Source: a virus
Virus record (IMG/VR): IMGVR_UViG_3300021599_001620
Coordinates: 1-20,718 of that record
Reading direction: 5' to 3' (one strand)
DNA length: 20,718 nt
Positions within the stretch are counted from its first letter, which is position 1, and every line of letters starts with the position of its first letter. Position numbers and translations under genes: made by a program. Positions 780 through 17,536 of the stretch are shown in pieces. The notes beneath the pieces were generated by a model. That model was not told the origin of the DNA, made no database searches, and saw nothing but the letters and a program-made list of their open reading frames with translations.

Positions 780-1781
780 ATGGCATTCACAGCAGCAGAA
801 GTCGCTAACATCGCGACAGCCGCCCTTGATTATCACATCAAAGGCCCAGCTCTCTCGCAGAGCATTCAAGATAAACCGCTCCTCAAGGCTCTTGAGGGCA
901 GCAAGAAGTCCTTCCCCGGAGGCAAGGGCGACATCACCATCCCGGTCAAGGGTGACTACACCACGGCGATTGCGGGCTACACCCACAACGACTCCGTGTC
1001 GTATGCCAACCCAGCCAACCTCAAGCGCGTAAATTACCCATGGAAAGGAATTTCCGTTGTTGATTCCGCTCAAGGCAAGACCGTCAGCAACCACAGCGAC
1101 CGCGAACTCACCGTTCTTACCGGCTTGCTTGAGGACAAGCTGGAGGACATGACCGAGGGCTGGAGCCGTTCTTTCAATGCTATGCTTTGGAAAGACGGGA
1201 CTCAAAGCGCCAAGGAAGTTCCGGGCATTCGCTCGCTTCTCACAGACACACCTGCCACCGGCACGACTGGCGGCATCAACCGCGCTACTTCGGCTTGGTG
1301 GCGTCATCGCGCCCTTGTTGGAGCCAACAAGATCACCGCGTCTGCGACCAACCAAACCCTGACCAAGACTCTCCGCAAGGAAGTTCGTCAGCTTCGCCGT
1401 TACGCCAAAAATCCAAACTACCTGCTTCTCGCTGGTAGCGATTTCTTGGATGCGCTCGAAATCGAAGTCGCCGAAAAAGGTGTTTACACCGACATGGGCT
1501 TTGCCAATCGTGGCAAAAACGACATCGGCATGGCGGACATCTCCATGCGTGGCGTTGGCACTTTCGTCTATGATCCCACTCTGGACGATCTCGCCCTCTC
1601 CAAGCGTGCGTTCTTCATCGACCTCAACGCCATTCAGCTTATGCCGATGGACGGGGAAGATAAGAAGACCCACAATCCCGCCCGCCCATACGACCAATAC
1701 ACCATCTACCGCGCTATGACGTGGACTGGTGGTCTGGTCGCCCGCCAACTTAACAGCTCCGCTGTTTACGAGGTGGCTTAA
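780..1781 (+). CDS. Major capsid protein (HK97-fold, podovirus type)
   Basis: The 333-residue product has the features of podovirus coat proteins: a short N-terminal arm, a basic glycine-rich stretch (about residues 41-52), and a long central alpha/beta region with YLLLAGSDFLDALE near 215-228. The C-terminal beta strand contains DQYTIYRAMTWTGGLVARQL, typical of the closing strand of HK97-fold capsids. There is no N-terminal delta domain or protease, which agrees with a separate scaffold gene upstream. The length is close to what I recall for the BPP-1 coat protein, but I cannot place the subfamily. The purine-rich sequence AAGGAAAA about ten bases before the ATG is one of the few Shine-Dalgarno-like sites here, fitting a highly expressed gene. 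A strong hairpin follows the stop. Confidence 0.88.
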   Translation: MAFTAAEVANIATAALDYHIKGPALSQSIQDKPLLKALEGSKKSFPGGKGDITIPVKGDYTTAIAGYTHNDSVSYANPANLKRVNYPWKGISVVDSAQGKTVSNHSDRELTVLTGLLEDKLEDMTEGWSRSFNAMLWKDGTQSAKEVPGIRSLLTDTPATGTTGGINRATSAWWRHRALVGANKITASATNQTLTKTLRKEVRQLRRYAKNPNYLLLAGSDFLDALEIEVAEKGVYTDMGFANRGKNDIGMADISMRGVGTFVYDPTLDDLALSKRAFFIDLNAIQLMPMDGEDKKTHNPARPYDQYTIYRAMTWTGGLVARQLNSSAVYEVA

Positions 1782-6378: not shown

Positions 6379-7266
6379 ATGTGCGACTGGGGCGTTTCAG
6401 CGGCAGTTATTTCGCTCGCCGCATCAGCGGCAAGCACTTACGCGGCTTATCAGGCTTCGGAGCAACAAGACGCATCTAATGCAGGCGCAATCCGCGACAG
6501 GGCAAATGCTGAAAATATAAATGCCCAACAAGCAATGTCGCAGCGTCAGCAAACGCTTCGCGAGATGGAACAGCTTGACGAGGAGCGTAGGATGCAAAAA
6601 CAGGCTCTCGCCGATCAACATTTGGCTGAAAGCGGAGCTGATTCCACAAAACAAAAGATTGATGACGAATCTGCTAGTCTTTTAAGTCAAAAGTTGGGAG
6701 CTGTTACTTCTGTGAATGCACCAAGCGCGTCTGCTATTGGTGGCGACGAAACAGGTGTTCGCGTTGTTGCAGACGAAAGAGCCGCCACGCTTTCAAGGGC
6801 ATTGCAGGCAAGAACTCCGCAGCAACAGGCTTTGGCTTCAATGCTTGCCAGACAAAATGTAGGCGTAAACAATCAAATTGCGCTTTCAAACATGGCTAAC
6901 TTGAACAGCGTCGGAGATAACATTTACGCAGGGCGTCGCGGCGCTATCGGCCTTGCAGACAGCCTTTCCGGGCAGCTTTATCAGTTGGGTCAATATAACG
7001 CCGGACAGAATTTTGCCAACGCGCAATCACGCCTTCCGTATATTGGTCAAGGATGGCGGACTGGCGCAGGTATCTCGCAAGGAGTCGGCAATCTCGCCGG
7101 TTCATACGCATCTTACTCTGCCGGTCAATCGTCTGCCGCAAACGCGGCAGCAAACAGGCCGATGGAAATTACGGGATCGGCAACAACGGCTTCTGGAAAC
7201 ACGGTTCCAACAATTAACGGCAAGGTTCCAGACATGGCCGCATGGTCAACGCCAGCTAAATTTTAA
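6379..7266 (+). CDS. Internal virion protein, T7 gp14-like
   Basis: The 295-residue product opens MCDWGVSAAVISLAASAAST, a short hydrophobic segment after Met-Cys that resembles the start of T7 gp14 (MCW followed by a hydrophobic Ala-rich segment, from memory). A long helical region rich in Gln, Glu and Arg follows (about 30-85), as in gp14. The C terminus (about 215-295) is Gly/Ser/Ala-rich. In T7, gp14 enters the outer membrane and extends the tail channel at infection. Cys2 is again the only cysteine. It starts three bases after the previous gene, with AATAATAT before the ATG. Confidence is moderate because the match is by pattern only. Confidence 0.62.
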   Translation: MCDWGVSAAVISLAASAASTYAAYQASEQQDASNAGAIRDRANAENINAQQAMSQRQQTLREMEQLDEERRMQKQALADQHLAESGADSTKQKIDDESASLLSQKLGAVTSVNAPSASAIGGDETGVRVVADERAATLSRALQARTPQQQALASMLARQNVGVNNQIALSNMANLNSVGDNIYAGRRGAIGLADSLSGQLYQLGQYNAGQNFANAQSRLPYIGQGWRTGAGISQGVGNLAGSYASYSAGQSSAANAAANRPMEITGSATTASGNTVPTINGKVPDMAAWSTPAKF

Positions 7267-7268
7267 TT

Positions 7269-8393
7269 ATGCCAAGCACGGTTCAACAAAATCCATATCG
7301 CGACACAAGCTGGGCAGACGCCGGAAGCAATTTGGCTACCGCTTTTTTTGGCGATCCAAAAATGAAAGCTGCTCACGCGCAACTTGAGGCGCAGCGGCTT
7401 AATCAAGCGCAACAGCAATCTAATTGGAATCAGTCTTTTGCGCTTCAAAACGCAGCAGCAGCAAGAGACGCGGAACTTCACCCGCACGCGCTATCAAAGG
7501 CTCAACTTGAAAAAGACAAGCTGTCTGCCGAGCTGTCTAGGATTCAAGCCGAAAATCAATCACGAAGCGGAATTGTAAATTTTTTCGAGACGCCCGGAGC
7601 TCTTGTCCGCGATGAAGCCAGCGGAAGAATGGTGATTCCGCAAGACAAAGTTTCCGAGTTTATGGCATTGCAGGCTCAATTTGACCCGCAAATCAGTTCG
7701 GAAGTAGCAAAATTGGCAAATCCAGAAGCCGCAGATGACGGAATTTTTGGAACAGAAAAAGACAGATATAAGACCGTTGAGGATGCTCAATCGGCTGCGT
7801 TTCAGTCAAAATCTAACGCTATGTCTGCCTCCAGAATGGCGCAGGATGATGCTTTCTTGGAAAAGTCACAGCTAGGAGTTGGCGTCCCCGGAGTTGACTC
7901 TGTAATATCTGGAATTGCAAATTTGTTTGACACCGAAGGTGCGAAGGCGGCTAGACAATTTTCAGACACAACAATTTTGGACTGGCTTCAAAAATCAACT
8001 CTACTTAAGGGAGCCATTACAGAACGCGAAACCGCTCAATTAAGAGCCTCCCAGCCGCCGCCATACGCGTCAGCGCAGAATAAAAAAGAATGGCTTAACG
8101 CAATGTCTTGGGCTTCAAACAGGGAGGCCGAATGGCAGAATATAAGGGCCGAGGCCGCAAAGAAGGGCGTTCAGCCGCCGAATGTCGTTGATTGGGCAAT
8201 GCAATACGAAGAAAAATTCCCTCGCCCTGCCCTGCTTGGCGGGAATAATCAAATGCAGGCATCGCCGTCCGTTGCTGACGCAATGTTTCAGCAGACTTCG
8301 CAGACACAGATTCCAACCGGCGTTCCTGCCGGGATCAGCCCTACTGATTGGCAGTATATGACACCCGAAGAAAGGGCGCTTTTCACACAATGA
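7269..8393 (+). CDS. Internal virion protein, unknown (gp15 position)
   Basis: The 374-residue product is rich in Ala, Gln and Ser and lacks cysteine. An N-terminal region (about 35-100) is helical and Gln-rich, followed by mixed segments (FFETPGALVRDEASGRMVIP at about 105-124) and helices with Trp (NKKEWLNAMSWASNREAEW). The C terminus is Pro/Thr-rich and ends PTDWQYMTPEERALFTQ. No family was recognised. Its place between the gp14-like gene and the very large last virion gene is where T7 has gp15. The final codons overlap the next gene in an ATGA (8390-8393), so translation is probably coupled. Confidence 0.6.
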   Translation: MPSTVQQNPYRDTSWADAGSNLATAFFGDPKMKAAHAQLEAQRLNQAQQQSNWNQSFALQNAAAARDAELHPHALSKAQLEKDKLSAELSRIQAENQSRSGIVNFFETPGALVRDEASGRMVIPQDKVSEFMALQAQFDPQISSEVAKLANPEAADDGIFGTEKDRYKTVEDAQSAAFQSKSNAMSASRMAQDDAFLEKSQLGVGVPGVDSVISGIANLFDTEGAKAARQFSDTTILDWLQKSTLLKGAITERETAQLRASQPPPYASAQNKKEWLNAMSWASNREAEWQNIRAEAAKKGVQPPNVVDWAMQYEEKFPRPALLGGNNQMQASPSVADAMFQQTSQTQIPTGVPAGISPTDWQYMTPEERALFTQ

Positions 8394-9085
8394 CACTTGA
8401 ACAACAGCAGGCTTTGGCGCTTTCTCGCGCCCGTCAACGTTCCGCGTCGGCGTCACAACAGCAGCCAACCACCGCTCAAGGCGCTCAAGAAGCTCCAGAC
8501 TCCGGCTTCATGGGGAAAGTTGCGAGATTTTCAAATGTTGTGGCTCGCGAAGCGGCCCCATACGTCGCAGCCGGGACAGGCGGAGCGGCGCTTGGGTTGG
8601 CTGGAGGGCCGTTTGCTGGCGTAACGGTTCCTAGTGGATTTCTTGCTGGGGCCGGGGCTTACGGTCTGTCAAAACTTTTTGGTGATCCTGCCATTTCTGC
8701 CGCCAACGCGGCCATGGGAACTGAAATTCCAACGGTCAGTCAAGCGTCAGACAACTTGCTTGACGCAACAGGAATGTTCATTCCGCAAGATCAGCAGACA
8801 AAAGGCGAAAGAGTCCTTGGAACCGCAACGCAGGGCGCAATGGACGCAATGTCTGGCGTTGGAGCCGGAAAGCAGCTCGCGCAATACGGAGCTGGCCCTG
8901 TTTCTGAAATGGTTGGGAAAGTTGCTGGCCCGGTTGCATCAAAAATTCCGTTCTTAAAATCAAGTTGCGGCGGGAATTGCCGTCCCGATGATTGCTGGAA
9001 TCGGATACAACATTGCAGCCAGAAGGTTCCCGAACGCAATCGGCGCAGACAATTTGGCTGCGTTCTTTGGCGGAGCCACCGATGA
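8390..9085 (+). CDS. Large ejection protein, N-terminal part (frame broken near 8957)
   Basis: I chose the ATG at 8390 because it overlaps the previous stop as ATGA; an in-frame ATG at 8348 would run deep into the upstream gene. The frame gives 231 residues. Residues 1-190 are Ala/Gly/Gln-rich with a hydrophobic glycine-rich stretch (about 58-100) that could insert in a membrane. After ASKIPFLK the last 40 residues change character: five cysteines, several Arg and Trp, where the preceding 190 residues hold none. That tail is almost certainly out-of-frame reading. The true coding sequence continues one base over in the frame ending at 11201. A +1 shift would give one 936-residue protein. Confidence 0.7.
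   Translation: MTLEQQQALALSRARQRSASASQQQPTTAQGAQEAPDSGFMGKVARFSNVVAREAAPYVAAGTGGAALGLAGGPFAGVTVPSGFLAGAGAYGLSKLFGDPAISAANAAMGTEIPTVSQASDNLLDATGMFIPQDQQTKGERVLGTATQGAMDAMSGVGAGKQLAQYGAGPVSEMVGKVAGPVASKIPFLKSSCGGNCRPDDCWNRIQHCSQKVPERNRRRQFGCVLWRSHR
8954..8990 (+). other. Frame break between two halves of one coding sequence
   Basis: Reading TTA AAA at 8954-8959 and then skipping T8960 continues as CAA GTT GCG GCG in the frame of the downstream gene. The downstream frame has a stop at 8955-8957, so the overlap is bounded. The only in-frame start before the downstream body is ATG 8988, with no good Shine-Dalgarno sequence. The A-run at 8956-8959 is short but is a possible indel site. No classic slippery heptamer is present. 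Confidence 0.65.
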
Positions 9086-11201
9086 AGTTAAGCAGATCGC
9101 CGGACGACCGCTTGACAACATGCCAATTACCGAAATTGGTCAATCCGGGCGAAAGGCCGCAGCCGCCACGCAAGCTGTCAGAAATGTGTCTGAATACTTA
9201 AAAGACCAAACCGGCAAAGCCGGTTCGATTGATGATGTAATAAATAATCTATCCCAAGCCGGGGATATTTACGGCGGAGGATTGGTCAAGCCAGACGCGG
9301 CAACTTTATCAAATAACATGGGGATGATAGGGGCAATGCGGTCTGTCGCCAATGATCCCGTGGTTGCGGCTAGGGCAAAAGCAAATAAATCCGCCGTTGG
9401 ACAAGAAGTTTCCGAGGCGCTTCCGAGGGTCGGAGCGCCAGCGCGCGCGGCCCAGAATTTCATGCGCGGAGAATTGGAGTCCGGCATCAAATCGGCAGAC
9501 CTTGAAAGGCAGCAGAAATTCCAATCGCTAACTGGAGCCGAGGGCGAAATAGATCGCCTGCAATCTCAAGCAGACGTAACTGGAGACGCGCTTAATCGCG
9601 CAGCCGCATCTGAAGCGGCCTTGCCAGCATTACGCGGCAAGGACGCAGAAATGCGGGCTGTCAGTCAAAAATTAAGCGACGCAATTCCCAAGGATTTGCC
9701 AGTAAATATCGGAGACAATACCAAAAAAGCCGCTCAAGCCGCCGTAAACGAGTTCAAGAATCGCGCCACGGGCGAGCCAACAGAGGAGATAAAGGCGCTT
9801 CTGAAATTGGCCGACGAGAATCCTAATATCTTGTCTGGCGAGGCGCACGAAAATTTCAAAGACCTTTACAATCTTGCCGCGAGCGCGCAGACGCCAAACG
9901 AAAGGCGTCTTGTTGAGGGTGTGCGAAACGCTCTGCGTAAGGACATTGAATCTGTTTCGGAACTTCAAGAGCCATTTAAGAAATTTAATCAATTTTACAG
10001 CAAGACATACCATCCAAATTACAGGGAAGGAGCTTCTTTGGATGTGTTGACTGGACGCAAGGCTGGGAATGAAATGAAAATCGCTCCAGAAGCAACGCTT
10101 GATCGTTTCTTGCGTGTGAGCGAAATGGAGGGCGGAAGGGACGCGAGAAGGCTTGTTAGCGCGCTTTCTGGCAAGTCCGGCATGAACTCCGATTCAGAAA
10201 AAATTATCGGCGATTGGGTTGAGTCTTCAATTTCATCAGCTATCCGAGACAGCAAATCCACAGACAAAGCAGCAGTTGCAAAGGCTTGGATGGATAGGCA
10301 TTCATTGATTATCAATGAGCTTCCTGTTTCCGCGCAAAATCGCGTGATGAAAATTCAATCCGATTTCGGGCTGGCGCAGGGAACGCTTTCAAAAGCAAAA
10401 TCAGAACTTGCGGTAAGCGAAGAAGCCCTGTCTGCGGCGAAGCAAAAATTAACATCCACCCCGGAAGGCAAGTTTTCTGCTCGCGGAATGGAAGCGGCTA
10501 ATAATGTTGACGAGTGGTTGTATGGAAAAAAAGCAAGAGCCACAATGAATCAGCTTGTTCAGACAGCAAAACGAGATAAAAGCGGAAAAGCGATGCAAGG
10601 CTTGAAAAACGCCGTCAAGGAATCGCTAGAGCGCAAAATAAAAAACGTAGGGTCAACAACCGAAGGGAATGCGGCAGACATCGCGCTTGAAGATTTTGGA
10701 ACATCGTTTGCCAAGATGAATAAAGTTCTGTCCAGCGAAGAAACCTCAAAAGCATTGCGGCAAGTATTTTCTCCAAAAGAAGTTGAATCACTTTCACGTA
10801 TTCGCAAAAAAATCGCGATTTCCACAAGGATCAACGAAAAGGCAACTACTGGATCAATAACGGCTTATCTTGGAAAAGGCGGTCAGTCGCAGCTTGACGA
10901 GATAGCTCGCGGCATCGCTGCCCCCGGAAGCAGCACGACAGCATTTGGTGCTGGAGCTGTAAGAACATTAAAGACCATCAAGGACTTGGCGGTTGGGGCT
11001 ACAAAATCAACCGTTGTTGACAATGACACGCTCAATAAACTTCAGCATGAAATCTTGTTGAAGGCATTACTTGACCCTGATGTTGCTGTCGCTTTGTTGC
11101 GGACTCCAAATGCGGAAAACCTTAAAACTACGTCATCTATTTTGAAGCCAATAGTTCGCGGCTTTATGTCTGGGCAGTCTGAAACAGATTCAGACAACTA
11201 A
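8988..11201 (+). CDS. Large ejection protein, C-terminal part (continuation of 8390 gene)
   Basis: The 737 residues from ATG 8988 contain no cysteine and are rich in Ala, Lys, Glu and Ser. Most of it is predicted by eye as long helices, for example AEGEIDRLQSQADVTGDALN (about 185-205) and KAKSELAVSEEALSAAKQKL (about 470-490). The first residues (MIAGIGYNIAARRF) continue a hydrophobic segment whose upstream codons, in the same frame, read QVAAGIAVP, so the start at 8988 is likely artificial. Size and place match the largest ejection protein of T7 (gp16), which crosses the envelope during infection, but I see no lytic transglycosylase motif. The C terminus is acidic (QSETDSDN). The gene ends the virion module. 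Confidence 0.72.
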   Translation: MIAGIGYNIAARRFPNAIGADNLAAFFGGATDEVKQIAGRPLDNMPITEIGQSGRKAAAATQAVRNVSEYLKDQTGKAGSIDDVINNLSQAGDIYGGGLVKPDAATLSNNMGMIGAMRSVANDPVVAARAKANKSAVGQEVSEALPRVGAPARAAQNFMRGELESGIKSADLERQQKFQSLTGAEGEIDRLQSQADVTGDALNRAAASEAALPALRGKDAEMRAVSQKLSDAIPKDLPVNIGDNTKKAAQAAVNEFKNRATGEPTEEIKALLKLADENPNILSGEAHENFKDLYNLAASAQTPNERRLVEGVRNALRKDIESVSELQEPFKKFNQFYSKTYHPNYREGASLDVLTGRKAGNEMKIAPEATLDRFLRVSEMEGGRDARRLVSALSGKSGMNSDSEKIIGDWVESSISSAIRDSKSTDKAAVAKAWMDRHSLIINELPVSAQNRVMKIQSDFGLAQGTLSKAKSELAVSEEALSAAKQKLTSTPEGKFSARGMEAANNVDEWLYGKKARATMNQLVQTAKRDKSGKAMQGLKNAVKESLERKIKNVGSTTEGNAADIALEDFGTSFAKMNKVLSSEETSKALRQVFSPKEVESLSRIRKKIAISTRINEKATTGSITAYLGKGGQSQLDEIARGIAAPGSSTTAFGAGAVRTLKTIKDLAVGATKSTVVDNDTLNKLQHEILLKALLDPDVAVALLRTPNAENLKTTSSILKPIVRGFMSGQSETDSDN

Positions 11202-13126: not shown

Positions 13127-13363
13127 ATGAACATCAACATCGACCCGCACAAAGTCATCTCCTTTTTCGGAGGTCGCGAGGCAGTTCAAAAACGGCTTCA
13201 AAAAGCCAAAGTAATTGTCAGCCTCAAGGCAATCGAAAAATGGTGCGAAAGGTCAAACATGCCAGCGTCCCGATTCGCGCAATTAGCATATTGCGCCAAG
13301 AAGGACGGTCGCGAGTTCGACCTTTACGACTTCATTGCAAAAATCAACATCACTAAAAAATGA
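13127..13363 (+). CDS. Cro-like small DNA-binding protein (predicted)
   Basis: The 78-residue product fits a Cro/CII-type helix-turn-helix regulator: residues 6-26 (DPHKVISFFGGREAVQKRLQ) resemble the first helices, and 32-52 (SLKAIEKWCERSNMPASRFA) resemble a recognition helix followed by the Pro-Ala-x-Arg turn common in small Cro-like phage proteins. It is the first gene of the rightward transcript, divergent from the repressor, which is the Cro position. The start is the ATG after GCACAAACCAAC, an A/C-rich leader without a Shine-Dalgarno sequence. The stop overlaps the next start (ATGA at 13360). Confidence 0.7.
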   Translation: MNINIDPHKVISFFGGREAVQKRLQKAKVIVSLKAIEKWCERSNMPASRFAQLAYCAKKDGREFDLYDFIAKINITKK

Positions 13364-13773
13364 ACCATAGCAAAATGAGTCTAACCGATCTCAAAAAGGA
13401 GGCCGTTTATTTGGCCGAATGCCGAGCCGAGATCGACGCGGACATAAAAAGCATAGAGCAGGAAATTCTGAATCGAATGGGCGACGAGTTTTATGCGGCC
13501 CTCAAAGACAGGGGACAGGAATACGGAGATTGCACAATGGAACGCGACGGCGTAAAGCTGACGCTTAAAATTGCAAAAACCGTTACTTGGGACAGCGACA
13601 AACTATCAGCCGTAGCGGCGCAAACGCCACCCGAATTGCGCCACATTTACAAAGCCAAAATTTCCGTGTCTGAAAAAGACTGGAATGCCGTGAAGGAGCT
13701 GCCAATCGGACAGAGCCTTCTGGAAGCCCGTATTGTTAAATACGGCGAACCCAAAGTGTCCTTTAAGGACTAA
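13360..13773 (+). CDS. Early phage protein of unknown function
   Basis: The 137-residue product is not recognised with confidence. Residues 6-45 form a charged helix, probably coiled coil (SLTDLKKEAVYLAECRAEID, then KSIEQEIL). Residues 60-137 form a beta-rich part with TLKIAKTVTWDSDKLSAVA and a segment KISVSEKDWNAVKELP. I recall similar small proteins beside phage AAA_24 ATPases and nucleases, so a role as an accessory to the recombination genes is possible; that is inference. It overlaps the Cro-like gene by four bases. A second ATG at 13375 could also serve as start. Confidence 0.65.
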   Translation: MNHSKMSLTDLKKEAVYLAECRAEIDADIKSIEQEILNRMGDEFYAALKDRGQEYGDCTMERDGVKLTLKIAKTVTWDSDKLSAVAAQTPPELRHIYKAKISVSEKDWNAVKELPIGQSLLEARIVKYGEPKVSFKD

Positions 13774-17007: not shown

Positions 17008-17219
17008 AGGTCAACATTGAAATCGACATGGACACCGAATCGCATAAGCTGGATGCTCACCTTCGCGGGCCGGAATACAAACATGTGTTGGAAGCGATTT
17101 TTTTTGAAATCAACAGCCTATTGTCTCAAGGGCATCCATATATCAACGCAGACGCGGCGCTGGTCGCATTGCACGACAAGTTAAAAAAAGACGCGGAGTA
17201 TTTTAACATCACCCTATGA
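17004..17219 (+). CDS. Small protein of unknown function
   Basis: I chose the GTG at 17004, which overlaps the helicase stop (GTGA) and has GGAAAGG about eight bases upstream; a GTG at 16983 in the same frame lies inside the helicase gene. The 71 residues (MKVNIEIDMDTESHKLDAHL at the start) show a beta strand followed by a helix KHVLEAIFFEINSLLSQ and a charged C terminus. No domain is recognised. It overlaps the next gene by four bases (ATGA at 17216). Confidence 0.65.
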   Translation: MKVNIEIDMDTESHKLDAHLRGPEYKHVLEAIFFEINSLLSQGHPYINADAALVALHDKLKKDAEYFNITL

Positions 17220-17536
17220 AGTCCATACTACACGAAGCCATTGAATGCACCAGCGGCGCGCGCCGAAGGGATTATGATAGCGCCGAACCAAACCACCAGC
17301 GGATTGCTGGCGCTTGGAACTGGTATTTGAACGCAAGAAAAAACCCATCCGCGCCCATATCGGCATTGGACGCAGCTCACATGATGGCTCTCTTGAAAAT
17401 TGCGCGCGCTTGTTTCACGCCGACCAGAGACACGTATGTTGATTTGGCTGGATATTCCCGCTGCGCGGCGGAGATAGCCGGATTTGAAGTGAATGACGGC
17501 GTTGTTCCGTCTGACTTGTATGAGGAGGGAGACTAG
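17216..17536 (+). CDS. DUF6378-like phage protein
   Basis: The 106-residue product contains TSGARRRDYDSAEPNHQRIA (12-31), AWNWYL, and DAAHMMALLKIARACF (52-67) followed by DTYVDLAGYSRCAAEIAG. This spacing of GxRxxDY, W-x2-YL, LLKIAR and VDLAGY matches the small all-helical family DUF6378, common in phage genomes and of unknown function; it resembles the MazG-like helical fold by eye, which I cannot prove. It overlaps the preceding gene by four bases and ends three bases before the next. Confidence 0.75.
   Translation: MKSILHEAIECTSGARRRDYDSAEPNHQRIAGAWNWYLNARKNPSAPISALDAAHMMALLKIARACFTPTRDTYVDLAGYSRCAAEIAGFEVNDGVVPSDLYEEGD

Follow-up and report, generated by a model that had tools for sequence, protein, structure and literature searches.

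Gene content and relatives

The window, that is the whole stretch of DNA analysed here (20,718 bases), is a complete IMG/VR record that is linear and has both ends cut inside genes. Its genes start with a scaffold-like gene, the gene of the major capsid protein (phrog_9953), tail-tube-like genes and a phrog_308 gene, which encodes an 'internal virion protein' of the acetyltransferase type. Three small to middle-sized virion genes follow, then a large gene that is split over two frames. Beyond this lie HNH, integrase and repressor on the minus strand, followed by genes for a Sak4-like annealing protein, a helicase, a Cas4-type exonuclease and a primase/helicase. Because both an integrase and a repressor are encoded, the gene content identifies the window as part of a temperate tailed phage.

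The closest relatives were reached via the capsid gene and are the records L002 (IMGVR_UViG_3300021961_000425) and L003 (IMGVR_UViG_3300021962_000167). Their DNA is identical over 21 kb, their metagenomes have neighbouring sample numbers, and by sequence they are the same phage recorded twice, with the capsid gene and the large virion gene both intact. More distant capsid relatives (45-54%) come from an alphaproteobacterial MAG, a Devosia MAG, a Rhizobiales genome and one deltaproteobacterial MAG. The 3' part of the split gene, used as sole query, found no close relative in viral contigs, phages or genomes, and no IMG/VR contig, the window's own record included, was matched by exact patterns taken from either side of the break or by a degenerate pattern built for the junction in the capsid gene, so that near copies may have escaped this search. 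The features discussed below are as follows.

Whole record, 20,718 bases, linear: IMGVR_UViG_3300021599_001620
780 to 1781, plus strand: major capsid protein gene, 333 residues, HK97 fold by relatives (phrog_9953, E 4.8e-48)
1046/1047, plus strand: second putative deletion junction, 48 nt absent, in frame (16 residues, residues 90-105 of the relative)
7269 to 8393, plus strand: preceding virion gene, 374 residues, syntenic counterpart of Rhizobium phage RHph_N65's 'putative injection protein'
8390 to 8963, plus strand: 5' part of the gene for the ejection-type virion protein, about 191 residues in frame up to the junction, with 65% identity to the L002 protein's N-terminal region
8963/8964, plus strand: putative deletion junction, 143 nt of L002 (18250-18392) absent, placement uncertain by 1 nt
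8964 to 9085, plus strand: out-of-frame tail of the 5' part, rich in Cys, Arg and Trp, ending at TGA 9083-9085
8964 to 11,201, plus strand: 3' part of that gene, about 745 residues read in the second frame, 77% identical to the L002 protein over 742 residues

The same order of genes is found in Rhizobium phage RHph_N65 (MN988536, EVC08_001 to _015), which has a homologous capsid gene followed by an acetyltransferase, two small virion genes, the 'putative injection protein', a large protein, HNH, integrase and repressor. Its large protein differs from that of the window, however, in that it has 708 residues in one frame, gives no match to the window's family in an HMM search and is followed by a lysin gene. 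Two local observations concern other genes of the group. The virion gene at 6379-7266 is matched among the close phages only by L005 (tblastn, E<=1e-3), and a gene of similar size occupies the same place in most of them; on the L005 contig, the Sak4-like gene (L030, about 7375-8235) has a single stop codon within its tblastn-matched region.

A large virion gene in two frames

The start codon at 8390 overlaps the stop codon of the preceding gene (ATGA), as it does in L002. The upstream frame (frame 1) spans 8390-9085 and ends at TGA 9083-9085, and the downstream frame (frame 2) is open over 8958-11,201, after TAA 8955-8957, with 747 residues that begin NQVAAGIAVPMIAGIGYNIAA. A first-pass annotation of this DNA had drawn attention to an abrupt change in cysteine content, and recounting bears this out: residues 1-189 hold no Cys, the next 42 residues of the same frame hold 5 Cys, 8 Arg and 2 Trp, and the 747 residues of the other frame again hold none. 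The split over two frames is really present in the sequence, and it is more than chance since each half aligns with part of a single, continuous L002 protein (65% over residues 1-189; 77% over 742 residues). The first-pass proposal of a 936-residue protein with a +1 break near TTA AAA T thus stands as to one gene in two frames and as to the sum (189 + 747 = 936), but the break is the site of a 143-nt gap and the parent protein would have had about 986 residues.

In L002 and L003 the counterpart is one uninterrupted ORF of 986 residues. Like the window's protein it follows an injection-type gene with an ATGA overlap, precedes an HNH gene and is Cys-free; unlike it, it is continuous and 50 residues longer overall. 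In the DNA alignment with L002, homology runs up to window position 8963, is interrupted by a clean gap of 143 nt and resumes at GTTGC. The lost segment corresponds to L002 residues 194-241 and holds a Gly/Ala-rich motif common to L022, L023, L042 and L053. Since 143 nt are 47 codons and 2 nt, the loss alone accounts for the +1 change of frame; with the nearest relative only 65-77% identical, the ancestral length is an estimate and the actual loss could be a few codons longer or shorter. Single ORFs cross the position of the break in L022 (L005 contig), L023 (L013 contig), L004, L025, L042 and L053. Read-through is seen in five further lineages besides L002/L003, and the proteins of L002, L022, L023, L025, L042 and L053 are all Cys-free. 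The break is therefore not a conserved property of homologous phages, and no relative has two genes at this place.

Over the stretch in which both frames are open, mismatches to L002 number 11, 7 and 27 at codon positions 1, 2 and 3 of the downstream frame, and third-position coding bias is seen in the downstream frame only. The Cys-rich tail is therefore out-of-frame noise and, by this pattern of substitution, is under no selection in its own frame. As the relatives also encode the protein in one frame, there is neither a conserved frameshift nor a small alternative product under selection. In the 3' part pN is 0.156 and pS 0.722, which gives a dN/dS of about 0.07, with dS close to saturation.

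A second loss in the major capsid gene

The first-pass annotation had described the neighbouring genes as intact, which does not hold for the capsid gene. The capsid protein of the window has 333 residues, compared to about 343-356 in most relatives, and a block of 16 residues is gone between its residues 89 and 90, where 89 of 89 spanning relatives have no gap. The missing block contains six invariant positions (E90, H92, G94, E101, L102, K103). All 26 invariant columns outside the gap are kept, as are 49 of 52 nearly invariant ones, the three lost ones lying inside the missing segment, and another gap of at least 3 residues at conserved columns was found in none of the 90 proteins compared. 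Being in frame, this loss is invisible to an ORF scan. The dN/dS of the capsid gene is 0.08.

In a low-confidence structural model of a relative's capsid protein (pLDDT 56), the missing block opens with a strand that precedes the long spine helix. Foldseek returned 108 PDB matches to this model at E<=1e-3, and among the matches listed most are phage capsids and encapsulins. The loss of these 16 residues would very probably prevent capsid assembly. With L002 as proxy, each junction has just 1 nt of shared sequence, though more microhomology may have existed in the ancestor of the window. Single-strand folding of the relative's lost segments was uninformative, with a z of -0.97 for the large one and of -2.9 for the capsid one, the latter calculated on the relative's sequence and not the window's.

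When the genes of the window were compared with their relatives, gaps at well-conserved columns that occur in the window only were two, one in the capsid gene and one in the ejection-type gene; for the genes at 6379-7266, 13360-13773 and 17216-17536 this comparison draws on few relatives (one to three). Other gaps follow stretches that vary between lineages, and in most other genes synonymous change is saturated, with low pN against high pS.

The gene directly upstream of the split one (7269-8393) is 77 residues shorter than that of L002 and lacks a Pro-rich stretch after residue 153. Its front is much less conserved than the rest (31% vs 63%), pointing to a mosaic or rapidly changing region. 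An 84-residue gap in this gene was weighed as a possible third deletion but not accepted, as the region is Pro-rich and variable and only 1 of 4 aligned relatives has residues throughout.

Nature of the large protein

The ejection proteins of podophages include gp14, gp15 and gp16 of T7 and gp7, gp16 and gp20 of P22. PhiM1 has a podophage ejection-protein system as well, the ejectosome (PMC11440229). The window's large protein resembles those of T7, P22 and PhiM1 in what appears to be its build and place, being a large and mainly helical internal virion protein whose gene closes the virion module, but searches of Pfam, PHROGs (best E 0.004) and the PDB returned no sequence match. The gene lies behind the capsid gene, the tail-tube-like genes, phrog_308 and three further genes. 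The protein has about 1000 residues, is Ala-rich and has its most hydrophobic segments within the first 260 residues. Its predicted structure is confident and almost all-helical at about 400-800; the N-terminal part (21-385), which holds the lost segment, is of low confidence. A fold search of BFVD at E<=1e-3 returned large uncharacterised phage proteins (best E 1.8e-11), two of which carry an annotated GEWL lytic transglycosylase (LT_GEWL) domain, while no lytic transglycosylase domain was found in the large protein itself, nor a PDB fold match at E<=1e-3. Position, synteny and helical fold suggest that it acts in DNA ejection, and the first-pass name of ejection protein is a reasonable, putative working name.

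Origin of the losses

We consider it very likely, from the comparison with relatives, that 8390-11,201 represents one virion gene interrupted by a loss of about 143 nt. About 143 nt would have been lost inside a gene that encodes a large internal virion protein of the ejection type, helical and free of Cys; since 143 is not a multiple of three, the remaining two parts would fall into different frames and could not yield a full-length protein. The preference of the first-pass annotation for a mutation or an error is thus upheld as the better class of explanation, with a loss against L002 in place of a miscounted base. A second conserved loss in the same record, that in the capsid gene, fits a damaged record and does not fit a regulated event. 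Relaxed selection after the break, which would be expected only of an old lesion, was not observed in the 3' part, its dN/dS being like that of the capsid gene. As the other genes are intact and constrained, the losses would be either very recent or made by the library or the assembly.

Between these two origins, a loss present in the sampled DNA, which would make the phage a freshly defective prophage or a mutant, has roughly even chances. Its competitor, which accepts the deletion itself and disputes only its presence in the sampled DNA, holds that both segments dropped out of the record of an intact phage through chimeric reads or a wrong join at the library or assembly stage, and we rate it as quite possible, at somewhat less than even, the small remainder falling to other readings. 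It would readily explain two losses of conserved segments in one fragment of 20.7 kb with the other genes intact, the retention of conserved capsid columns outside the missing segment, the low dN/dS of the broken gene and the scarcity of homology at either junction (L002 as proxy). However, an assembler needs reads or overlap across each junction, other indel errors are not seen in the window, and a real lesion of very recent origin would be expected to look the same.

The other explanations fare far worse. A miscount of one base in the short A-run (8956-8959), which adjoins the junction and would yield the net +1, is very improbable, as it leaves about 50 residues of the relative unexplained and is contradicted by the alignment to L002, in which homology stops and restarts at 8963/8964, past the run. 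Equally little weight is given to two real genes, one for a short N-terminal protein and another for a large protein starting at ATG 8988; this codon is in frame with an intact ORF of 737 residues, but no relative has such an arrangement, no good ribosome-binding site was seen by eye, a promoter-like site is absent in 8850-9150, and the start would fall inside the most hydrophobic stretch. The least likely of all is a programmed +1 ribosomal frameshift yielding the full-length protein: both frames are open over 8958-9085 with a net shift of +1 and a CTT T sequence lies within this overlap, but the relatives have the gene in one frame and need no shift, which refutes this reading for the family, the break coincides with the 143-nt gap, a shift at CTT T would insert out-of-frame residues, and the upstream frame is not conserved past the junction. 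In agreement with the first-pass annotation, inspection of 8955-9085 by eye found no CTT TGA-like or heptameric slippery site, only one CTT TGG, with neither an in-frame stop nor an SD-like stimulator.

Implications

It is likewise hardly to be expected that both losses are real and kept, in a temperate lineage that does without the capsid strand by the spine helix and without the long ejection protein; if true, this would make the phage a defective or helper-dependent element whose other genes are still under selection. The deletion reading given above calls for an ordinary cause, a defect or a sequencing artefact, with no programmed frameshift and no new mechanism. What is tempting to read as a programmed frameshift is thereby corrected to an ordinary out-of-frame loss. 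The record is unfit as a reference for the capsid or the ejection protein of this group of phages, for which the intact relatives are preferable.
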